Numbered from the stretch's first letter, positions 26,351 to 38,084 are shown. The stretch is DNA of 64,000 nt from Opitutaceae bacterium TAV5 (GCA_000242935.3 CP007053.1:6619001-6683000), one strand, 5' to 3'. The notes: generated from the sequence alone by a model not told the origin. Numbers and translations are program-made.

Positions 26351-27409
26351 TCATCTCGCGGGCAAACTTTCCCCCTCCACCCACCGCCCCTCGATCATGG
26401 TTGCCGCGGCCGTTTCCGGAATCCCGCGCTTCCCCTGCCGTAGTTGCTCGATCACGACACGCACGCCCGCCGCGCCGATCTCGACATGGTTCTGGTCCAC
26501 GCCTGCGCAGTTCTCGTAACCCGGCGCCGGCACGCGGTCGATCGTCACCACGCCCACCTCTTGCGGCACGGAAAATCCCAGACGCGTCAGATTCCACGGC
26601 AACAGCCACCCCAGAATCACCTCCGGCCGACATCGTGCGATCCACCGCTCCAGCGCCTCGCCGCCGTCGCCACGCGCCAGCGTCCCCTCGGTCCGGAAAA
26701 CCGGAACGGCCTTCATCTCCCGCGTGTGCTTCACGAAGCCTTCGTACGCATAACACACTCGATGTCCCGTGATCGCATCGACCGATGGCGGACACACCAG
26801 CCCCACCCGCCGGAACCCGTTCGCATGCAATCGCCGCAATGCCAGCAACGCGCACGCGAAGTGATCCGCCTGGGCAAAATGGATGTCCGGCGCCCTGAGT
26901 CGCGTCCCCACGCTCGCACAGGCGAACCGCGACAGGTCAAACGCCAGCCCCGGCGCCCGTCCCCCCTCCGCCGCCTGCCGGTAGTATTGATTAACCACTA
27001 CACCCTCGATGCCTCGCGCCCGGAAGATGCCGGCCAGCCGCTCCGGCGACACGCCTGGTTCGTTGAGCCAGAACCGCTCCAGCCGATACCCCGCTTCCTC
27101 CGCCTGCGCCTTCGCCCCCTTCCACATCAACTGGAACACGGGATTGCCCGCAAACGGATCGCGATCCGGCGTCACGTTGAGCCACGCCAGCACCGATTCG
27201 ATGCGGCGACCCGGCCGCCGCCGCATCTGCGCCATCCCGGCGGCGAGCACCGGATCGACCTGATACCCGCGAGCCTTGGCCAGCGCGCGCACCGCCTCGC
27301 GCACCTCCGCGCTCACTCGCCCCGACCCGCGCAACGCATGGCTCACCGTCATCGGCGAGACACCGGCTTCGGTGGCGAGGGAGCGGAGAGTGATGCGGGT
27401 CGCAGTCAT
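26351..27409 (-). CDS. LacI-family transcriptional regulator
   Basis: 352 residues. The HTH and hinge are at 7-60 ('TLRSLATEAGVSPMTVSHALRGSGRVSAE'), then a periplasmic-binding-like sugar-sensing domain ('FWLNEPGVSPERLAGIFRARGIEGVVV', 'FRRVGLVCPP', 'GVVTIDRVPAPGYENCAGVDQN'). It is divergent from the pseudopilin-GH42 cluster starting at 27596, its most likely target. In the shared upstream region, gtaaa (27439-27443) and tttac (about 27456-27460) form a short inverted repeat that could be part of an operator, with weak support. A second regulator of the same shape is at 37002-38084. Confidence 0.93.
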   Translation of the reverse strand: MTATRITLRSLATEAGVSPMTVSHALRGSGRVSAEVREAVRALAKARGYQVDPVLAAGMAQMRRRPGRRIESVLAWLNVTPDRDPFAGNPVFQLMWKGAKAQAEEAGYRLERFWLNEPGVSPERLAGIFRARGIEGVVVNQYYRQAAEGGRAPGLAFDLSRFACASVGTRLRAPDIHFAQADHFACALLALRRLHANGFRRVGLVCPPSVDAITGHRVCYAYEGFVKHTREMKAVPVFRTEGTLARGDGGEALERWIARCRPEVILGWLLPWNLTRLGFSVPQEVGVVTIDRVPAPGYENCAGVDQNHVEIGAAGVRVVIEQLRQGKRGIPETAAATMIEGRWVEGESLPAR

Positions 27410-27595: not shown

Positions 27596-28324
27596 ATGAA
27601 ATTTTTCATCCCCTCCCTGCATACGAAATCTGCGACTGGCCGGGCAGGTTTTACCCTGATCGAACTGCTGACGGTCATCGCCATCATCGGCATCCTCGCC
27701 GCCATCATTATCCCGACGGTCAGCAAGGTCCGGGAAAGTGCCCGGGCGGCCCAGTGCAAAAGCAACCTGCGCCAGATCGGTATCGGCCTGGTCAGCTATA
27801 TTTCTGCCTCGAGAACAGGCGTGCTTCCCGGAATGGTCGGCGACGACTCGCGCAGCCTCTTTCAGGGCACCACCCCCATGAATATTATCGGGGTCATTAT
27901 CGACAGCGGCCACCTGCCGCCTCCGCCCAGGCTGGTGCTCTCGGGCTATCCCGGGGACGTGAACATCGCGGAACGTGGCGCCTACGCGTGCCCGGGGCTT
28001 CTTCCGCTCCGGAAATACATCGGCGGCGGCGACCAGTCCACCTACATGACCGACGACCGGAGCAACCGCATGAAGAAGGACGGCGCCAATCTCGTCCCCT
28101 ATAACGAGAGTGCAAAGCCCATCCTCATCACCGACGTGACGCCCTCCATGCGGGCTCAGGTCGCATGCAGCCATCCCGATGCGCACAAGGGTCGCCCCAA
28201 CATCCTTTTCCTCGACGGGCACGTGGAAATCATGCCTCCGGAAAAGGTGGCGACAGGCGAAGGATGGGCGCCCAACTGGTGGAAATGGGATGTCCTCGAC
28301 AAGGATTACACGAAGACTCCCTGA
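27596..28324 (+). CDS. pseudopilin with H-X9-DG motif (DUF1559-like)
   Basis: 242 residues. After a 17-residue leader comes [19 protein letters not shown], nearly identical to the pseudopilin at 2878-3594 through '[16 protein letters not shown]'. The C-terminal '[19 protein letters not shown]' has the H-X9-DG motif. It is expected to be anchored in the inner membrane after prepilin peptidase processing. It is divergent from a LacI regulator and lies 32 nt ahead of a GH42-like gene, so it heads a regulated sugar cluster. Whether it builds a pilus/T2SS or acts as a single anchored protein cannot be told. Confidence 0.9.
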
Positions 28325-28356
28325 TCCGTTTCTCTCCCGTCTCACCCGTTCATGTC

Positions 28357-30681
28357 ATGTTATGTCGGGCAACCCGTGATCAGCGTATCGGCTCCTGTTT
28401 TTCGCTTCATTTGAAAACGCATTTTTTCACCTTCCTCTGCACGCCGTTGCTCATGCTTCCGCCATCCTCGCCGGCCGATGCTGTCGCCGCCTCGGGAGCG
28501 CCCGCCACCCCCGCGCCCATCGCCGACGGCCTGCCCGCCCCCTTGCCGCCCTCCGCCAAGGCGCCGTGGAAATCCCGTTTCACCCTCACCAACGGTGTCC
28601 TCTTCAAGGACGACGCCCCCTTTTATCCGATCGGCTTCGTCTTCGGCACGAGTGACGCCGACCTCGCCCAGGCCCGCGCCATGGGTGCCAACGCCGTCCA
28701 CTTCGACATCGGCTGGAACACTGCGCCCCGCCCCGGCGACATTCCCGACGCCTCCTTTGACAAGGTTCGCGGCATGATCCGCCGCGCGGCCGACTGGAAC
28801 ATGGCCGTCATCCCGCTTCTCACCGGCCACTACGTCCCCGGCTGGTTCCAGCGCGCGTATCCGGCTTCCGAACACGCCCCCGTCGGCAGCGACGGCAAAC
28901 GCACCGGAAGCTGGACCCCCTACAGCCTCCACTCCCCCGCACTCCGCGAGCACATCCCCGCCTTCTGGCGCGCCACCGCCGCCATGGTCGCCGCCGAGCC
29001 CAACGTCATCGGCATCGGTGCGTGGAACGAACCCGGCTACGGCGGCACCTGGAACCGTGGCGACCAGTTCGCCGAATATTCGCAATGGGCCGTCGCCGCC
29101 TGGCGCGATCACCTCCGCACCACCTTCACGACTCTCGACGCCCTCAACCGCGCCCACGGCACCGGCTTCGCCACCTGGGATGACGTGCAACCGCCTCGCC
29201 AGCCGGAAGCATTCAACCGCCGTGCCTGGCTCGACTGGATGGAGTTTGGCCAGCGCGCCTTCGCCGGCTTCTTCGCCTGGGAGCGCACGATCATCAAGGA
29301 GGCGGCCCCCGCCCTCCTGCTCACCAACAAGAAACAGACCAACCCGTGGGATCGCTCCACCGCCTCTTCCGGCACCAACTGGGAACTCATGGGCCGCTCC
29401 GAAGACATCTTTGGCATCAACCTCTACTCCGGCTCCCCCTTCGGCACGCGCAACATCCTCGACGCCGCCTCCAGCTACGCCGACGGCAGGCCGGTCATGA
29501 TTTTCGAAATCAACTCCATGCCCCCCGGCGCCGAGGCCCGCACGCCCGACACCATTCGCACCCTCCTCTGGGCGCCGCTCGCCGGCGGTGCGCGCGGCAT
29601 GTTCATCTTCGCTTTCATCCGGGATACCGAGCACGGCATCCTCGGCCCCGGGGGCGCCAACGCCGAAGGCCGCGCCGAATACACCCGCCTCCTCATGCAG
29701 ATTTCCGCCCACCAGCGCGAACTCGCCTCGCCCCGCGTCGCCGGCCGCATCGGTATCGTCTATTCTACTACCGCCGCGCTCCAGTCTACCGGCGATCTCG
29801 TGCCCCGCCATGCCTCCGGCGCGTTCAGCCTCTTTCGCAACAGCCACTATCAGGTCGACTACATCCCCGAGGAACGCTGCACGCCCGACTACCTGAAACG
29901 CTACACCCTCGTCGTCCTGCCCACCGCCACCGTCCTCAAGCCCCGCGAAACCGCCGCCGTGCAGACGTATCTCGCCGACGGCGGCCGCCTCTGGGCCTTT
30001 GGCGACAGCCTCGCGCGTGACGAACTCTGGGCCGCGCAACCGCCCCCCGCCTTCCTCGGCCTCAAGGATCGCAAGCCTCCCATCGGGGACCGCCGCCACC
30101 AGCAGATCGGCAAAGTCGACTCCGCACTCGAAAGCTATTTTGAAGGCGACTGCCAGATCGGCGGCGTCGAGATGGTTTCCGCCGTCGTCGGCGACGCCGA
30201 CGCGATCCTGCCCGGAGCCGAAATCAGGACCGCCACCCACGGCCGCGTGCTCGCCTGGAACAGCGACAGCTACCCGACCCTCCTGCAAACCTCCACCGGC
30301 GGCCGCGTCATCTACAGCGCTTTCAGTTCCGACTACTCCGCCGCCCTGCGCGGCCTTGTCGAAGGCATCACCCGCGAGATCATCGGCCTCCGGCAGGAAG
30401 CCCGCCTCGTCGGCAACGCCACCGACATGACCGCCAGCGCGGTCATCACCGGCCTGCGCGAAGATTACCAGGACCCGTCCCTCCGTTACCTCATCGCTAT
30501 CAACACCGCCTGGCGCCCGCAAAAAACCCGCCTCGAACTTCCCGAAGGCTGGAGCCTGCAAGGGGAGGCGCTTCACAACGAAAACCACAAAACCACCCCC
30601 ACCCATGCCACCCTGAATGCCGACTCGCTCACCCTCGCCCCGCGCGAAGTCTATCTCTTCACCTTGAAAAAACGCGGTTAA
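28357..30681 (+). CDS. GH42-like beta-galactosidase family protein
   Basis: 774 residues from the ATG at 28357, which gives a hydrophobic signal-like segment (THFFTFLCTPLLMLPPSSP); the ATG at 28453 is an alternative. The TIM barrel spans about 60-440. 'GIGAWNEPGYGG' carries the proposed acid/base Glu (NE), and 'PVMIFEINSMPPG' the proposed nucleophile, as in clan GH-A. 'LKRYTLVVLPTATVLKPRETAAVQTYLADGGRLWAFG' resembles the GH42 trimerisation domain. A C-terminal beta domain ends at 'EVYLFTLKKRG'. The substrate is probably a galactoside or a related plant oligosaccharide. It lies between a pseudopilin and a PEP-CTERM gene. Confidence 0.88.
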   Translation: MLCRATRDQRIGSCFSLHLKTHFFTFLCTPLLMLPPSSPADAVAASGAPATPAPIADGLPAPLPPSAKAPWKSRFTLTNGVLFKDDAPFYPIGFVFGTSDADLAQARAMGANAVHFDIGWNTAPRPGDIPDASFDKVRGMIRRAADWNMAVIPLLTGHYVPGWFQRAYPASEHAPVGSDGKRTGSWTPYSLHSPALREHIPAFWRATAAMVAAEPNVIGIGAWNEPGYGGTWNRGDQFAEYSQWAVAAWRDHLRTTFTTLDALNRAHGTGFATWDDVQPPRQPEAFNRRAWLDWMEFGQRAFAGFFAWERTIIKEAAPALLLTNKKQTNPWDRSTASSGTNWELMGRSEDIFGINLYSGSPFGTRNILDAASSYADGRPVMIFEINSMPPGAEARTPDTIRTLLWAPLAGGARGMFIFAFIRDTEHGILGPGGANAEGRAEYTRLLMQISAHQRELASPRVAGRIGIVYSTTAALQSTGDLVPRHASGAFSLFRNSHYQVDYIPEERCTPDYLKRYTLVVLPTATVLKPRETAAVQTYLADGGRLWAFGDSLARDELWAAQPPPAFLGLKDRKPPIGDRRHQQIGKVDSALESYFEGDCQIGGVEMVSAVVGDADAILPGAEIRTATHGRVLAWNSDSYPTLLQTSTGGRVIYSAFSSDYSAALRGLVEGITREIIGLRQEARLVGNATDMTASAVITGLREDYQDPSLRYLIAINTAWRPQKTRLELPEGWSLQGEALHNENHKTTPTHATLNADSLTLAPREVYLFTLKKRG

Positions 30682-30794: not shown

Positions 30795-31544
30795 ATGAAA
30801 ACACCACTCACACCGTCATGCCTCAAAGCACTCCAGGGCGCGGCGTTTCTTGCCGCCGCGAGCCTGTTCCTCATCCCGGCCGCAAACGCCACCATCCTCG
30901 TTGATAGTGGCGACATCACCACATCCGGCGGAGTCTCGACCTACTCCTTCCAGGCCACCGGCAACCAACTCCTGGCCAAACCCGCCGACAGCATCACCCA
31001 GGTCAACAATGCCTTTTACTCGGCCAGCCGTATCGACTGGCGCGCCGAAGGCACCGCCACCTATTTTGCCAATCCGTGGTCCGGCGGAACGTCCACCATC
31101 ATTCTGGCCTGGGATTTCTCGAGTACTTCTTTTCGTCCGGAATCAATGGATGTTTATGACCGGGTTTTTATGGTGGCCGCCGCCACCGGAGTAACAGTGA
31201 CCACGGCATGGTCCGACGATCTCGCAACATGGCATGATATCCGGGCAGTCACCTCCACGGGGACCAATGCCAGCAGCTATACCACCACTCCGGACATCTC
31301 ACTCTCCTCGTTCGTTTCCAGCACCCTCTATTATCGGGTCACCTTTGAGGTCGCTTCAGACGGCACCTACGCCAACAGCGGCCAAGGCACGCAATGGGGA
31401 CGCTCCGGCCCCGACCAGACCGCGTTCAGCATCACCTTCAACGTGGCAGCCGTTCCCGAGCCCGCCACCTGGGTGGCGATCACGGGACTGGTGGTTCTCG
31501 GTCTTGCCGGTTTCGTCCGCCGGCACCGCCGCCAATCCCGTTGA
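30795..31544 (+). CDS. PEP-CTERM protein sharing a module with the downstream dockerin enzyme
   Basis: 249 residues from the ATG at 30795, chosen because it starts a signal peptide (MKTPLTPSCLKALQGAAFLA to ANA). Residues about 35-215 form a beta-rich domain of unknown family with 'FQATGNQLLAKPADS', 'RIDWRAEGTATYFANPW', 'IILAWDFS' and 'GTQWGRSGPDQTAFSI'. The same order of motifs forms the N-terminal part of the next protein (31622 onward). The C-terminus VPEPATWVAITGLVVLGLAG plus RRHRRQSR is a PEP-CTERM signal. It is probably an outer-surface protein; substrate or cell-surface binding is an inference. Confidence 0.88.
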   Translation: MKTPLTPSCLKALQGAAFLAAASLFLIPAANATILVDSGDITTSGGVSTYSFQATGNQLLAKPADSITQVNNAFYSASRIDWRAEGTATYFANPWSGGTSTIILAWDFSSTSFRPESMDVYDRVFMVAAATGVTVTTAWSDDLATWHDIRAVTSTGTNASSYTTTPDISLSSFVSSTLYYRVTFEVASDGTYANSGQGTQWGRSGPDQTAFSITFNVAAVPEPATWVAITGLVVLGLAGFVRRHRRQSR

Positions 31545-31621
31545 TTTCCGGAGGGGCGGCCGTCTCCGCCGCCCCGTTCTTTCATCAAACAACACTACCC
31601 GAAATGCCCCCCGAATATTCC

Positions 31622-34600
31622 ATGAAAGTCGCCGCGATGGCGGCCATTGCCTTTCTCGCCGCCCCGGCCTCGCGCGCCACCGTTTATGTGGAGAGCGCCG
31701 ATATCACCGGCAGCGCCTATACCTTCACCGCGACCGGCAACCAGTTGCAGGCTTCGGGAACACGCCCGCAAGTCAACGGTGCCTGGTATTCGGACAGTCG
31801 TATCGACTGGCGTAACGAAAGCAGCACTACTTTTTACGCCAATCCCTGGAGCGGCAATACAGAGACCCCCGGCATCATCCTCGCGTGGGATTTTTCCCGC
31901 TCCGGTCTCCGTCCGGTTTCCTTTGCCGTTTACGACAAGGTATTTTTCGCCCCCGCCGCGTCGGGCGTAACCGTCAAGACGGAATGGTCCACCGACCTGA
32001 TCGACTGGCAGGAAATCCGGACGATGGCCTCCACCGGCGTTGCCCTGACCAGCGCCGTCACTTCCGGCCCGGTCGCACTGCCCTCGCCCCGGGCGAGTCG
32101 CCTTTATTATCGGGTGACGTTTACCTCGACCGGCACATTCGGAAACAGCGGGCAGGCCACGCAATGGGGCCGCTCCGGTCCCGACCAGACGGCTTTCTCG
32201 ATCAACGTCGACCTCGAACCGGCGCCGCCTCCGGCAAGCTATGCGATCGAAGGAAGAACGCTGTTGCGCGATGGCGAACCCGTCCGGGGCGCCTTTGTCC
32301 TGTGGCCCGTCAACGCCACGCAGATGAAGGACGAACCCTCCATCCGGGCCGAAATGCGAAGGATGAAATCGCTCTTCGGCCTGAAGGGTTTCGCATTCGA
32401 GCTTGGCTGGAGGGGCACCGAACCGAGCCGCGGCCAGTTTGTTTTTCCCGAGGCGGTCGACCGGTTTCTGGAAGTCGCGGAGGAAGAAAAACTCCACGTG
32501 CAAATTTTTCTCACCCCGCATTACACGCCTGACTGGGTTTACAATCAGGGGCTCGATGTGCGGATGAAGGACGAAAACGGCGCGGACTCCACAGGCATCT
32601 GGCTGAATTATTCGCCCGCGTCACCGGCAGCCTTGCAGTGGCAGGGCGAGTTCCAGAGCCGCGCGATCGGATACTACCAGCGGTTTTCGAGCGTATCCGG
32701 ATTTCACCTCACCAACGAACTCACCTACGGAGTATCCGGTGCGTGGAACGATTATTCTTCGTGGGCCCAGGCGGCCTGGGAGGACTGGCTGGCTGCGCGA
32801 GGGTTGCCCGTCGTTTCCCTGCCGAAGTCCTCCGAAGCCTCCACCCGCGCGGCGGACTGGGGCCGCTTTCTGCTCTTTCGCCAGGACATGCTTACGAACT
32901 ACTTCAACACCGTGTATGGGCAAGCCGCCGCCGCCCTGGACGAGTTTATCCCGGTTTTCCATCGCCACAACTGGTATGCCGCCAGCGACGCTTACGCCAG
33001 ACGGCACGGGTTGAACTTCGACCCGACAAAAAACCTCGGCGACTGCACCGGCGGCAACGTTTACGGCGTGAGCAACACAATGGCGGCGATGTGGCTCTCG
33101 TGGCAGCGCCCGGTCAACCTCACCGAAACCAGCCTGACTGCTCTGGCCAACGCCGCCACCAGCACCCTGACCCCCGGTTCGCTCAACAGTGCGTTTCTCC
33201 GGCAATTTTTCTACGGAGCCGACATCCAGACCGTCTACCAATGGTCGTCGGGGAATTTTTACCCGATGCTCGACCCTGCCGGCGGAGCTCATGCTGCCTT
33301 CTCCCATTTTTCAACGGTCACCCACCTGATCGACCGGATCAGCGGAGCATTGCCGGAAATCCCGGACCAAGTCGGTTATCTCTGGCCGCGCGCCTTTGCC
33401 GCGCTTCGCTCAGACCAGTATCAGCACCTGCAACACCTGTTCGGCACCATCATGACGCCACCACGCCGCCTGGGCCGCACTCCGGTGATGATTTTTCCCG
33501 GTCAGATCGAACTCGACGCCGATTTGCTGCACTCCGTCCGCCTGCTGTATGTCACACGCCACTTCGGCAACGACCAGGACATCCTCGATCATCCTGCCCT
33601 GGAAAACTGGGTTGCCGCCGGCGGCACACTCGTCATGGAGCTCGACAGCGCCTCCCGCCCTCCGGTCTGGAGCGGAATCCAGATGGCAACGGCGGCAACC
33701 GGTGACATGGTGGCTGTTACAGCGGGGCCGCTCGATCCGATGGCAGCAATCCCCGCCACATCGGGCCGGCAAGGCTTCGCCCGCGCCTCCGTCACCGAAG
33801 TGTGGGCCGAGTGGAGTGACACCGCAAAAACACCCGCTGTAATCCGGAAGGACTACGGAAACGGCAAGGTCATCGCCGTGGGCACCGCCGCCTTGGCATC
33901 GTTGCCGCATTCATTTTACGCGGTCATCGATGCGGGGATTTTTTCCGACCAGGTGCAATCCGGCGAAAGCGTCAATTATTACCGCCTCGGGAAAAACGTG
34001 CTGGCCCAGCCGCAGGAGGCGACCCGATCGGTGACATCGCTCCCGGAATCCTGGATCGCCGCCGCCAGCGAATTCTGGAGTATCGACCGCACTACGGGCC
34101 TGGCGACCGAGGTCGCGCCATCCGGCACAAGCGGCGGCTTCGTCACCTTCGCGTTGCCGGCCGGTTCCCATCTCATGGCGATCGACCGGACCGCCGGCGC
34201 GTCCGCGCCCGTGTTGCTCGATGCCGTCTCCCGCAAGACGCATGGCCCGGCGGGCGTCTTCGACATCCCGCTTGCGGTGACAAACGGCGACACTGATCCT
34301 CCGGACGCCACCCTTGCCCCCGTCGAATGCCGCCGGGGCGACACACTCACCCTCGTTCTCGCATTCGACCAGCCCGTCTCCGCTCTCGAAGCCATCGTGA
34401 CCGCCGGCACGGCCACGGTGGCCGGAGTCGATTATGACCTCCCGGGTGGCGGTGTTACGATCCGCCTTTCCGGTGTGGCCAACACGCAACGCCTGCAAGT
34501 CGCCCTGCAAGACATCAGGGGGCCGGATGGCAATGCCGCCGCCACGGCCACAGTCAGCCTCCGTATCCTGCACGGCGATACGAACGACGACGGCAACGTA

Positions 34601-34747
34601 AACACCGCCGACGTCGACCTCACCAAATCGCGTGCCGCCGCACTACCGGACGCCCTCAACTTCCGCAGCGATGTCACGGCAGACGGAAATGTGAACACGT
34701 CCGACGTGAACTTCATCAAAAGCCAGGCCGGCGCCTTCGTTGACTGA
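31622..34747 (+). CDS. modular GH42-like enzyme with C-terminal type I dockerin
   Basis: 1041 residues from the ATG at 31622 (signal peptide MKVAAMAAIAFLAAPASRA; the ATG at 31604 is an alternative). Residues about 20-198 are the module shared with the preceding PEP-CTERM protein. Residues about 205-640 are a GH42/clan GH-A barrel: 'FVLWPVNATQMKDEP', 'GFHLTNELTYG' (NE, acid/base) and 'VNLTETSL' (possible nucleophile). 'DADLLHSVRLLYVTRHFG' and 'NWVAAGGTLVMEL' resemble the GH42 trimerisation fold, and beta domains follow. Residues about 984-1040 hold two dockerin calcium loops, DTNDDGNVNTADV and DVTADGNVNTSDV, with Asp/Asn at loop positions 1, 5, 9 and 12. It is a secreted enzyme expected to dock on a cohesin. 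Confidence 0.88.
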   Translation: MKVAAMAAIAFLAAPASRATVYVESADITGSAYTFTATGNQLQASGTRPQVNGAWYSDSRIDWRNESSTTFYANPWSGNTETPGIILAWDFSRSGLRPVSFAVYDKVFFAPAASGVTVKTEWSTDLIDWQEIRTMASTGVALTSAVTSGPVALPSPRASRLYYRVTFTSTGTFGNSGQATQWGRSGPDQTAFSINVDLEPAPPPASYAIEGRTLLRDGEPVRGAFVLWPVNATQMKDEPSIRAEMRRMKSLFGLKGFAFELGWRGTEPSRGQFVFPEAVDRFLEVAEEEKLHVQIFLTPHYTPDWVYNQGLDVRMKDENGADSTGIWLNYSPASPAALQWQGEFQSRAIGYYQRFSSVSGFHLTNELTYGVSGAWNDYSSWAQAAWEDWLAARGLPVVSLPKSSEASTRAADWGRFLLFRQDMLTNYFNTVYGQAAAALDEFIPVFHRHNWYAASDAYARRHGLNFDPTKNLGDCTGGNVYGVSNTMAAMWLSWQRPVNLTETSLTALANAATSTLTPGSLNSAFLRQFFYGADIQTVYQWSSGNFYPMLDPAGGAHAAFSHFSTVTHLIDRISGALPEIPDQVGYLWPRAFAALRSDQYQHLQHLFGTIMTPPRRLGRTPVMIFPGQIELDADLLHSVRLLYVTRHFGNDQDILDHPALENWVAAGGTLVMELDSASRPPVWSGIQMATAATGDMVAVTAGPLDPMAAIPATSGRQGFARASVTEVWAEWSDTAKTPAVIRKDYGNGKVIAVGTAALASLPHSFYAVIDAGIFSDQVQSGESVNYYRLGKNVLAQPQEATRSVTSLPESWIAAASEFWSIDRTTGLATEVAPSGTSGGFVTFALPAGSHLMAIDRTAGASAPVLLDAVSRKTHGPAGVFDIPLAVTNGDTDPPDATLAPVECRRGDTLTLVLAFDQPVSALEAIVTAGTATVAGVDYDLPGGGVTIRLSGVANTQRLQVALQDIRGPDGNAAATATVSLRILHGDTNDDGNVNTADVDLTKSRAAALPDALNFRSDVTADGNVNTSDVNFIKSQAGAFVD

Positions 34748-34761
34748 ACCCGCCCCCTCCC

Positions 34762-35397
34762 ATGAAAACCGTGCTGTTTCCGGTGTTCAGTGCTTTCGCC
34801 CTGACGGCTTGTTGTGCCCGGGCCGACGTGTCGCTCGTCTGCCCGACAACCGCCATCAACGTGCTTCCGGGCGAAACCTTTTCCGTAACGCTCAACCTCC
34901 TGATCACCGGCGACGAACGAGTCTCCGGCGTCGATTATTTCTGGAGAATCGACGGCGCCACGTCCGGCATGTTTGCCATCATCGGGCGCGACTTCGCCGG
35001 CAGTGTCTTCGATGATCCGATGTTTTCGAACGCTGCCATCACCCAAAGCCCGGCCAACGAGCTTGCCCCTCAAAACGGACACGTTCTCGGCGCCGTTCCG
35101 GAAGACTGGGAAACGTATGCAGACACCGGCACTCATTTTCTGGCGACCTACACGTTTTCCGTGAGCACATCCGTGACGGGAACCTTTGTTTTGGGAACAG
35201 TCAGCCATCCGGATTCCGGCTGGGGCGACACCGACTTTAACAGCCACGATTTCACCGGCCACGCCACCGTCACACTCAATGTCGGTCCGTTCATCCCTGA
35301 GCCGGTGACCTGCTCATTATTGATCGGGATTCTGGTCACAGGAACCCTTGTCTGCCATCGTCGGCAAACCTTCCGGGCAAAAACGATCGCTCACTGA
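34762..35397 (+). CDS. PEP-CTERM-anchored protein with a cohesin-like beta domain
   Basis: 211 residues. Signal peptide at 1-21 (MKTVLFPVFSAFALTACCARA). Residues about 22-170 show the layout of a cohesin-type beta-sandwich: 'VSLVCPTTAINVLPGETFSVTL' (compare V-x-P-G-[DE]-T-F-x-V in cohesins), 'VSGVDYFWRIDG', 'LATYTFSVSTSVTGTFVLG' and a final 'HATVTLNVGPF'. The tail IPEPVTCSLLIGILVTG plus HRRQ is a PEP-CTERM signal. It starts 14 nt after the dockerin enzyme. The cohesin assignment is by pattern only; a generic PEP-CTERM beta domain is the alternative. Confidence 0.75.
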   Translation: MKTVLFPVFSAFALTACCARADVSLVCPTTAINVLPGETFSVTLNLLITGDERVSGVDYFWRIDGATSGMFAIIGRDFAGSVFDDPMFSNAAITQSPANELAPQNGHVLGAVPEDWETYADTGTHFLATYTFSVSTSVTGTFVLGTVSHPDSGWGDTDFNSHDFTGHATVTLNVGPFIPEPVTCSLLIGILVTGTLVCHRRQTFRAKTIAH

Positions 35398-35461: not shown

Positions 35462-36880
35462 ATGTGCTCCATGCGGTTCCTGCTGTCGCTTTTCTTCCTG
35501 CCTCTGTCCGCCTCCCTGGCTTGCGCCGCGTCCCCGGACACTTCCTCCCCCCCGCCCGATCTCGCCGCCTACATCGCCCGCCCCGAACCCGACTACGGCT
35601 GGACGCTCCGGACCACCGGCGACCTCGGCACCTGCGATTACTGGCTGCTCAAACTCAAGTCCCAAGTGTGGCACGGCATTCCGTGGGAGCACGATGTCGT
35701 CATCATCCGCCCGAAAGGCGTCGCGCCTTCCGACACCATGCTGCTCATCAACAACGGCGGAAAGTTCAGCCCCAAATACACCGCGCACGGGATCATGCTC
35801 GCCAACCTCGTCAAGGCCCCCGTCGCCATCGTCCTCGGCGTGCCGCGCCAGCCGCTTTTCGACGGGAAAACCGAGGATCGCCTCGTCGCCGAAACGTTTG
35901 TCCGCTACCTCGAAACCGAAGACAGTTCGTGGCCGCTCCTCTTCCCGATGGTCAAGAGCGTCGTCAAGGGCATGGACGCCATCCAGGCGTTCACGAAACA
36001 GGAATGGGGCGCCGATGCCGCGCCGGAAAAATTCATCGTCACCGGCGCCTCCAAACGCGGCTGGACGACCTGGCTCACCGCCGCCGCCGATCCGCGCGTC
36101 AGCGCCATCGCCCCCATGGTCATCGATCTCCTCAACATCCCCGAACAGATCACCCTGCAACACGACCGCCTCGGCGGTTACAGCGAACAAATCCAGCCCT
36201 ACACCGAGCGCCAGCTTGTCCCCTCCCCCGACACGCCGCAGGCCCGCCATCTCTGGGCCATGGTCGATCCGTGGTCCTACCGCGCCAAGTACACCCTGCC
36301 CAAGATGATCGTCCTCGGAAACAACGACCGCTACTGGTCCACCGATGCGCTCAATGTCTACTGGGACGGCCTGCCCGGCCCCAAATACATCTCCTACACG
36401 CCCAACGCCGGTCACGATCTCTCGCCGCGCAATGCCGCCGGCAAACGCGAACTCCCCATGCGCGCGCTCAACAACATCGCCGCCTTCGTCCGCTGCCAGC
36501 TCACCGGCCGCGAACTCCCGGCCGTCACCTGGAAACACGACGACACGGATACGCCCGACGGTCCCCGTCTTCGCCTCACCGTCATCACCCGTCCCGCGCC
36601 GGCCCGGGCGAATCTCTGGACGGCCACCTCGCCCACGACGGATTTTCGCAATGCCCGCTGGGAATCGCGTCCGATCGACCTCGCCGCCGCCACCCATTCC
36701 GGCGGCGGCGAGGGAAACCCGCAACCCGTCGTCATCACCCTCGCCGCGCCGCAGTCCGGTCACCTCGCCTTCTATGCCGACCTCGATTACCAGGTCGACG
36801 AACTGCCCCTCCGCCTCTGCACCCAGCTCCGTATCGTTGGAAGCGATACGCCCGCCGCTCACCTGGCAAAAACGCCGTGA
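35462..36880 (+). CDS. PhoPQ-activated pathogenicity-related family protein (alpha/beta hydrolase)
   Basis: 472 residues with a signal peptide (MRFLLSLFFLPLSASLACA). It matches the PqaA/PhoPQ-related family: 'YIARPEPDYGWTL' at the start, 'VWHGIPWEHDVVIIRPKG', nucleophile Ser in 'FIVTGASKRGWTTWL', an acidic residue in 'MIVLGNNDRYW', and His in 'YTPNAGHDL'. Residues about 345-460 add a beta domain. The family's substrate is not established. Position at the end of the carbohydrate cluster suggests an esterase-like role. A weak TTGACC (35425) lies upstream without a convincing -10. Confidence 0.88.
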   Translation: MCSMRFLLSLFFLPLSASLACAASPDTSSPPPDLAAYIARPEPDYGWTLRTTGDLGTCDYWLLKLKSQVWHGIPWEHDVVIIRPKGVAPSDTMLLINNGGKFSPKYTAHGIMLANLVKAPVAIVLGVPRQPLFDGKTEDRLVAETFVRYLETEDSSWPLLFPMVKSVVKGMDAIQAFTKQEWGADAAPEKFIVTGASKRGWTTWLTAAADPRVSAIAPMVIDLLNIPEQITLQHDRLGGYSEQIQPYTERQLVPSPDTPQARHLWAMVDPWSYRAKYTLPKMIVLGNNDRYWSTDALNVYWDGLPGPKYISYTPNAGHDLSPRNAAGKRELPMRALNNIAAFVRCQLTGRELPAVTWKHDDTDTPDGPRLRLTVITRPAPARANLWTATSPTTDFRNARWESRPIDLAAATHSGGGEGNPQPVVITLAAPQSGHLAFYADLDYQVDELPLRLCTQLRIVGSDTPAAHLAKTP

Positions 36881-37001: not shown

Positions 37002-38084
37002 TTATTCCCCCGCGCGCCACACCCCCGGAAACATCAACTTTCTCGGGAAATCCGGCAGCCCGCGCTGCCCGCGCAACAACTGCGCCACCACCAGATCCAC
37101 CGCATTGGCCGCGATGATGTCGTAACGCTGGTCCACCCCGTGCGCGCCGTGCCCCGGATGCCACGACAGCAGCACCGAACGGTCCGCCGCCCCGCTCCAG
37201 CCCGCCCGCCGCGCCGCCTCCAGCGTGCCGCCGTTGTCCAGCACCAGCGCATCCGGCTCCCGCTCCCGCAGCCACGTCTCGAGCACCGCCTTCTCCGGCA
37301 ATCCGCCTCCGCCGCCTGCCGTCTTCCCTCCGGCTCCCGTCCTCGCCTTCGCTCCGGGCAACAGCAACAGCCGCCGCGCCGCCCCGCGCGGCCCGTGCGC
37401 CAGCCACGCCGCCTGCCAGCTCCGGTGCGCCCGCTCGTCGATCGCTGCGGAAACAATCGCCGCCGGCCGTCGCGCGCCCGCCTCCCGCAGCCGCCGCAAC
37501 GCTTCCTCCATCGCCTCGTAGTGAAAATGAGCCGCCCGCGAAAGCGGCGCCGGCCACTCCGCCGTGCCGAGCACCGCCATGGCAAACGCGTCCCACGGCC
37601 ACGCAATCTCCACGTCCTCGTGCTGCGTGACCGGCGCAAACACCACGCCCGTAATCCCGCGCGCCCGCAGGATCGACGCCAGCCGTTCCGCCCGTCCGCC
37701 CACCTCCGTCAGCCAGAACACCTCCAGCGCGTAGCCCGCCTCGCCCGCCCGCTCCCGCGCTCCCGCGACCACGCTGTCCAGAAATCCCCCCTTCGCCATG
37801 TCCGCCCGCGTCCCCTCCACGCAGACCAGCGCGATCCGCTCGCCCGTCGGCATCGGGTGCCCCCGCCGCACATTCGCCATCACTTCCGCCACCCGCGGGT
37901 TCGGCCGGTAGCCCAGACGCCTCGCCGCCTCCCGCACCCGCTCCGCGGTCTCCGCCGGGATGTTTTTCATCCCCCGCAACGCATACGACACCGACGACAC
38001 CGCCAGCCCCGTTGCCCGCGCCACATCTTTCAGGGTCGCGTACCCCTTCCGCTCGTCTGTCCGGCTTTCGTCGCTGCTGTTCAT
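37002..38084 (-). CDS. LacI-family transcriptional regulator
   Basis: 360 residues. The HTH lies at about 17-37 ('TLKDVARATGLAVSSVSYALRG'), then the hinge 'RRLGYRPNPRVAEVMANVRRG' and a sensor domain ('FWLTEVGGRAERLASILRARGITGVVF', 'AVLGTAEWP', 'VDQRYDIIAANAVDLVVAQLLRGQRGLPDFP'). The layout resembles the regulator at 26351-27409, including the 'LRARGI-GVV' segment. A Gly/Ala-rich loop near 258-268 is unusual. It is divergent from the FAD oxidoreductase, and a perfect inverted repeat at 38093-38108 sits 8 nt before its start, suggesting self-control and control of the neighbour. Confidence 0.93.
   Translation of the reverse strand: MNSSDESRTDERKGYATLKDVARATGLAVSSVSYALRGMKNIPAETAERVREAARRLGYRPNPRVAEVMANVRRGHPMPTGERIALVCVEGTRADMAKGGFLDSVVAGARERAGEAGYALEVFWLTEVGGRAERLASILRARGITGVVFAPVTQHEDVEIAWPWDAFAMAVLGTAEWPAPLSRAAHFHYEAMEEALRRLREAGARRPAAIVSAAIDERAHRSWQAAWLAHGPRGAARRLLLLPGAKARTGAGGKTAGGGGGLPEKAVLETWLREREPDALVLDNGGTLEAARRAGWSGAADRSVLLSWHPGHGAHGVDQRYDIIAANAVDLVVAQLLRGQRGLPDFPRKLMFPGVWRAGE

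Follow-up and report, generated by a model that had tools for sequence, protein, structure and literature searches.

A predicted single-cohesin protein with an exosortase signal as a probable surface dock for dockerin-bearing secreted proteins in Opitutaceae bacterium TAV5 and other Verrucomicrobiota

Introduction

Dockerins bind cohesins, and PEP-CTERM tails are the targets of exosortases. Both kinds of module meet in a 64,000-nt window of Opitutaceae bacterium TAV5 (CP007053.1:6619001-6683000; the whole stretch of DNA that was analysed), where the gene of a GH42-like secreted enzyme ending in a dockerin is followed by that of a small secreted protein (P3), which has a cohesin-like domain and a PEP-CTERM-like tail. 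Does the enzyme dock onto P3, and is such a pair confined to this locus? In a preliminary description, the enzyme was proposed to dock onto an exosortase-anchored partner in a small cellulosome-like complex. Here we put at roughly 0.7 the probability that P3 is a monovalent surface dock, that is, a single cohesin on an exosortase substrate that receives one to many dockerin-bearing secreted proteins. The source of TAV5, whose genome has 7,317,842 + 99,831 bases, is the termite Reticulitermes flavipes (PMC4358385).

Dockerin and immunoglobulin-like module of the enzyme

The GH42 assignment of the 1041-residue enzyme held for part of the family profile: PF02449 matched with 37.5 bits against a cut-off of 21, covering only profile positions 11-161 of 376. 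No relative of the catalytic part was found in PDB by phmmer at E 0.1. At the C-terminus, PF00404 (dockerin) scored 27.5 bits in a search of the genome, over the cut-off of 22.9, and 21.7 bits, just under it, in a scan of the whole protein. The two calcium loops with dockerin spacing that had been noticed there are both complete (loop 1, 34577-34612, DTNDDGNVNTAD; loop 2, 34670-34705, DVTADGNVNTSD), and a helix follows each of them in the AlphaFold model (module residues 135-143 and 166-174). Additionally, a profile made from the immunoglobulin (Ig)-like module with its dockerin and their relatives matched PDB dockerins with E values down to 1e-8. The enzyme carries a genuine type I dockerin, beyond chance, and this was the only dockerin match that the PF00404 search found in the TAV5 genome.

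The Ig-like module and the dockerin were modelled together by AlphaFold with a predicted local distance difference test (pLDDT) score of 95. Their joint profile aligned across the X module and dockerin of 2b59_B and 3kcp_A. Since Foldseek and VIA matched the Ig module to Ig and CopC-like folds, its homology to X modules is weak. In both searches the Ig part of the model alone was matched, with no dockerin among the matches; the dockerin assignment is based on the sequence and the predicted loop-helix layout.

Predicted fold and tail of P3

A cohesin fold in P3 had been set beforehand as a check on the proposed docking. The AlphaFold model of P3, built with 19 aligned relatives, was a beta-sandwich with a core pLDDT >90. 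Cohesins ranked first in both structure searches: the best Foldseek match was 2xdh, a non-cellulosomal cohesin of Archaeoglobus fulgidus (E 4.5e-7), with cohesins as the top matches, and the best VIA match was 2vo8, a cohesin of Clostridium perfringens (Z 12.2; root-mean-square deviation, 2.9; 132 residues). A cohesin fold of P3 is well supported by this predicted structure, while the fold alone would leave the function to be inferred.

Cohesin folds lie near those of carbohydrate-binding modules and adhesins, and the P3 sandwich also resembles an adhesin domain (9ifr, Z 9.4, where the first non-cohesin VIA rows begin) and integrin domains (Z about 8.6), at lower Z. It is conceivable on this ground that P3 binds carbohydrate or matrix and that the enzyme dockerin binds another partner, either a different TAV5 protein or one on a neighbouring cell. 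We regard this as improbable, because VIA rows 1-27 were all cohesins, no further PF00963 cohesin was found in the TAV5 genome, and dockerin and cohesin-like genes are adjacent and co-occur across genomes, as shown below. Among the best profile matches in the TAV5 genome there was no second P3-like ectodomain, the next match having an E value of about 3. The pairing of the enzyme with P3 in TAV5 is supported because the dockerin is the only one found in the genome, no other P3-like ectodomain was found, and the two genes are adjacent, with a spacer of exactly 14 nt from the enzyme stop codon to the P3 ATG, as had been claimed together with the gene positions.

At least 141 PEP-CTERM tails were counted in the 7.4 Mb of TAV5, together with four exosortase genes (PF09721). 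Within the P3 family, 16 of the 19 tails matched PF07589 and 14 matched TIGR02595 at E 0.1 or better.

Conservation of the dockerin/cohesin-like gene pair in Verrucomicrobiota

When P3 alone was searched against 388 genomes of the phylum, the result looked negative and consisted mostly of PEP-CTERM tail matches; trimming of the tail and use of an ectodomain profile resolved this. In a congener (G389), a pectate-lyase-like plus GDSL-like enzyme carries an Ig-dockerin module 39% identical to that of TAV5, and the next gene encodes a P3 relative (36% identity; pairwise E value, 4e-37). The dockerin is internal in this enzyme, with the GDSL-like domain after it, and the 1202 nt between module and cohesin-like gene are mostly carrier coding sequence. 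A two-sequence P3 profile found one more full-length relative in the same 388 genomes, in G013, which was one of two other genomes already showing the Ig-dockerin module and which has two carrier/P3-like pairs in tandem. Finding the paired gene in G389 and G013 led us to drop the idea that this Ig-dockerin end is no more than an orphan C-terminal tail common across Verrucomicrobiota.

In total, 14 adjacent pairs were obtained: those of TAV5 and G389, the two of G013, and one each in G167, G573, G547, G584, G585, G586, G626, G607, G608, and G620. A P3-family gene thus lies directly behind an Ig-dockerin carrier at 13 loci besides TAV5, from the congener to several Verrucomicrobiota families. 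Recurrence of the pairing in other genomes, the second check set beforehand on the proposed docking, was thereby confirmed. The carriers are unrelated in their other domains (GH42-like, pectate-lyase-like, BNR-repeat, fibronectin-type, and others), and some are not glycoside hydrolases. What stays constant is the Ig-dockerin end, located at the extreme C-terminus in most carriers, followed by a small gene for a cohesin-like PEP-CTERM protein. A scan of genome contigs with the module profile gave mainly short dockerin matches and, in addition, three Verrucomicrobiota loci with no recognised adjacent pair.

To count co-occurrence, we used an Ig-dockerin profile (A4) and a profile of the cohesin-like ectodomain with the PEP-CTERM tail removed (A5) on the 213 genomes in the order to which G013 belongs. 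A4 matched 38 of them, with 15 to 17 modules or more in some. The ectodomain profile matched 15, and all 15 fell inside the dockerin-positive 38, against none of the 175 others. Without the five genomes used for profile building, 10 of 10 fell within 33 of 208 (p 3e-9), and when counted by genus, 11 of 11 fell within 14 of 45 (p 4e-8); these p values are guides and not exact probabilities because the genomes are related. Among 13 loci found by the ectodomain profile alone, six had a dockerin carrier ending less than 1 kb upstream on the same strand. Under a worst-case null of 0.4% per locus, p was about 1e-11, or 1e-7 when two congeners of a training genome were left out.

These counts refute coincidence as a full account of the locus. 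PEP-CTERM genes are so common, as the TAV5 total illustrates, that one beside a dockerin enzyme might mean nothing; yet the P3 family, which was aligned on the tail-less ectodomain, recurs behind dockerin carriers across families, and we consider coincidence very improbable.

Several results weigh against a dock. Neither P3 nor its family matched a cohesin model of Pfam or NCBIfam, PF00963 (cohesin) had no match in the TAV5 genome at E 1, and none of the 19 P3 family members matched it. The cohesin-like domain claimed in the preliminary description is upheld by the predicted structure, whereas none of the sequence models supports it; P3 is termed cohesin-like here from its predicted fold and is not placed in PF00963. 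Sequence models can miss divergent cohesins (PMC11557425). Similarly, the PEP-CTERM tail read in P3, which also has a signal peptide, is present as a layout (PEP, hydrophobic stretch, and basic end), but it scored below the cut-offs of both TIGR02595 and PF07589, and with PEP-CTERM genes so numerous in these genomes, such a tail is by itself hardly informative. No dockerin carrier was adjacent to seven of the 13 independent cohesin-like loci, and no cohesin-like gene was detectable in 23 of the 38 dockerin-positive genomes, eight of these 23 being at least 90% complete. A mirror-tree style comparison of distances gave a correlation of 0.69 between cohesin and dockerin; since the cohesin and the Ig module gave a higher value (0.75), the correlation is uninformative on contact, which is inseparable here from common descent, and it was rejected as evidence.

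The gaps in pairing bear on another explanation, namely a conserved secretion cassette without direct binding, in which the Ig-dockerin end would stabilise or sort its carrier alone and the P3-type protein would be a co-expressed matrix protein. In dockerin-rich genomes, most carriers lack a cohesin-like neighbour, the gene went undetected in several complete genomes with dockerins, and the position of the dockerin at the end of most carriers is that of a sorting tail. Against this, the neighbour has specifically the fold of the known dockerin partner, is absent from all 175 genomes without an Ig-dockerin module, and follows carriers with unrelated other domains. On balance, we judge a cassette of this kind to be unlikely, and we favour the surface dock.

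Proposed docking and comparison with known systems

In the dock that we propose, P3 would be exported via its signal peptide, and its PEP-CTERM tail would hand it to an exosortase, with the cell surface or the surface matrix as its destination. Exosortase substrates may either stay at the envelope or pass into that matrix on release. The single cohesin domain, facing outward, would bind the C-terminal Ig-dockerin module of the enzyme, with calcium probably needed for dockerin folding, as the fold and family suggest, and the enzyme would be retained at the cell rather than diffusing off. Physical binding, calcium dependence, processing by an exosortase, and the place where P3 is finally attached are all inferred. 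A monovalent dock of this kind would stand behind other dockerin carriers in relatives, and it may receive several of them in genomes that have many carriers and only one or two docks. In a wider reading, Verrucomicrobiota may well have a cohesin-dockerin system of their own, in which an unrecognised cohesin family with exosortase signals is a general docking port, so that a single exosortase anchoring would serve many proteins in trans. Such a port could plausibly recruit large sets of secreted proteins, with at least 17 Ig-dockerin modules per genome at the upper end.

A surface docking port fits better than a cellulosome-like scaffold because each anchor protein has a single cohesin and TAV5 a single dockerin. 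The small cellulosome-like complex of the preliminary description was not borne out, as P3 has a single cohesin and no scaffoldin was found: PF00963, which would reveal a scaffoldin with several cohesins, had no match in the TAV5 genome, divergent multi-cohesin proteins not having been searched separately. In place of many dockerin-bearing plant-wall enzymes, the TAV5 genome gave one dockerin.

P3 is like the OlpA- and ScaE-type anchors of clostridial and ruminococcal cellulosomes, in which one surface-anchored cohesin receives dockerin partners, and the cohesins of OlpA (3ul4) and ScaE (2zf9) are among its fold matches. However, those anchors belong to cellulosomes and are attached to Gram-positive walls through SLH domains or LPxTG sortase (PMC11557425), whereas P3 has a PEP-CTERM/exosortase signal in a Gram-negative-type envelope. 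The anchors listed in the consulted passages of that survey are SLH, LPxTG, LysM, transmembrane, and amine-oxidase-like, with no exosortase noted. The best structural matches to P3 are non-cellulosomal cohesins (2vo8, 2w1n, and 2jh2 of C. perfringens glycoside hydrolases; 2xdh of A. fulgidus), which, as P3 would, pair with dockerins outside plant cellulose degradation. The C. perfringens cohesin is part of a secreted enzyme (PDB entry titles), whereas P3 is a small protein of its own, a proposed anchor whose gene follows that of the dockerin carrier. In the X-dockerin dyad of CipA (2b59, 3kcp), an Ig-like module and a dockerin are fused as in the TAV5 enzyme, and one profile spans both; the CipA dyad is on a scaffoldin, whereas the TAV5-type dyad is on enzymes.

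Cohesin-dockerin systems beyond cellulosomes are established, including predicted ones of Gram-negative type with other anchors (PMC6461901, PMC8542988). Freshwater Planctomycetes with their 'Planctosome' (PMC6461901) and Cloacimonadota with a cellulosome-like complex (PMC8542988) have, like TAV5, predicted cohesin-dockerin assemblies outside Bacillota. The anchors proposed for them are a lamin-tail protein or a conserved C-terminal domain, with adaptor or multi-cohesin proteins, in contrast to the PEP-CTERM signal and single cohesin of TAV5. The PEP-CTERM/exosortase system as described (PMC1569441) has the signal peptide, PEP motif, hydrophobic helix, and basic end seen in P3; that paper nowhere mentions dockerin or cohesin. 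We found no publication joining PEP-CTERM with dockerin and cohesin, or with the cellulosome, the review by Peer et al. (2009) being outside our coverage. What is new here is therefore the anchor signal and a sequence family outside current models, in a protein that would work like a single-cohesin anchoring protein.

Variation at related loci

In the congeners G584-G586 (L141, L171, L172), a second, larger PEP-CTERM gene directly follows the dock, and the unit there may comprise three genes. Two cohesin-like proteins of G639 (L162:7711-8394 and L163:7600-8430) have no PEP-CTERM tail; one has an Ig-like extension, and the other enters an unrelated reading, possibly by a frameshift. G640 has a decayed cohesin-like remnant after a dockerin carrier (L110:2860-3161 and L132) and an intact copy on another contig (L161:7138-7830). 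In the order of G013, dockerin carriers are often beside genes read as DsbA/VKOR-like, and also beside a small gene whose product ends like GGALYVLKGDxFIRIxVG (L035, L101, L132, L138, L107). In a verrucomicrobial metagenome-assembled genome (L041), several dockerin-like repeats are interleaved with PEP-CTERM genes, and none of the genes there was recognised as belonging to the cohesin-like family.

Organisation of the locus and the upstream gene P1

The features of the locus are collected in Table 1. The gene before the enzyme encodes a PEP-CTERM protein (P1), and the claim that it shares the N-terminal module of the enzyme was confirmed: P1 (30795-31541) and the module are 54% identical over 208 residues, and the P1 tail scored 18.1 bits with TIGR02595 (cut-off, 16). 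G389 has a PEP-CTERM gene some 2.6 kb away from its enzyme, on the opposite strand, with 35% identity to the accessory module of that enzyme. PEP-CTERM ectodomains and the accessory modules of dockerin enzymes appear to have been exchanged in the genus of TAV5 and G389. A third copy of the N-terminal module in TAV5, at G000:C1:397900-398511 (L038), is again in a PEP-CTERM protein. The P1 gene is outside the widely conserved unit: of the gene trio proposed for a search in other Verrucomicrobiota, the pair of carrier and P3-type genes recurs, whereas all three were seen together only in TAV5 and, as a pattern, in G389, the one congener examined. P1 may also be transcribed separately from the enzyme/P3 pair because a hairpin followed by a T-rich stretch separates it from the enzyme.

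Just upstream of these genes is a second GH42-like protein without a dockerin (window 28165-30681), and just downstream is a PhoPQ-related hydrolase (window 35462-36880). Genes read as LacI-type regulators flank the group on the minus strand (26351-27409 and 37002-38084), and the genes between them look like a small glycan-use cluster.

Table 1 Features of the dockerin enzyme/P3 locus, with positions counted from the first letter of the window.
Feature	Position	Strand	Basis or remark
P1, PEP-CTERM protein	30795..31544	+	249 aa counted from ATG; ectodomain matches enzyme N-terminal module
Terminator-like hairpin	31553-31575		Between P1 and enzyme; strong hairpin, then T-rich stretch
Alternative enzyme start	31604		In-frame ATG
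GH42-like secreted enzyme	31622..34747	+	Open reading frame, 1041 aa; PF02449 37.5 bits
Enzyme signal peptide	about 31622-31678	+	Read from sequence, MKVAAMAAIAFLAAPASRA
Enzyme N-terminal module	31670..32230	+	Common to upstream P1
Ig-like module, directly before dockerin	34214..34570	+	Conserved with dockerin in relatives
Type I dockerin of enzyme	34571..34735	+	PF00404 27.5 bits; PDB dockerins; helix positions
P3, small secreted cohesin-like protein with PEP-CTERM-like tail	34762..35397	+	211 aa; 19-member family alignment
P3 cohesin-like domain	34825..35286	+	AlphaFold, Foldseek, VIA
P3 PEP-CTERM-like tail, PEPVTCSLLIGILVTGTLVCHRRQTFRAKTIAH	35296..35394	+	Sequence; helix 181-210 in model

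Implications

These results point to a previously undescribed means by which these bacteria mount secreted proteins on their outer surface. If true, it links cohesin-dockerin docking with exosortase sorting. The many C-terminal 'dockerin' modules of Verrucomicrobiota that have had no evident partner would gain a function open to testing, and one PEP-CTERM family among many without a function would gain a ligand-binding role. A dock of this type would also be a Gram-negative one usable for enzyme display. For TAV5, it would be a possible way for a termite-gut bacterium to keep a polysaccharide-degrading enzyme on its own surface.

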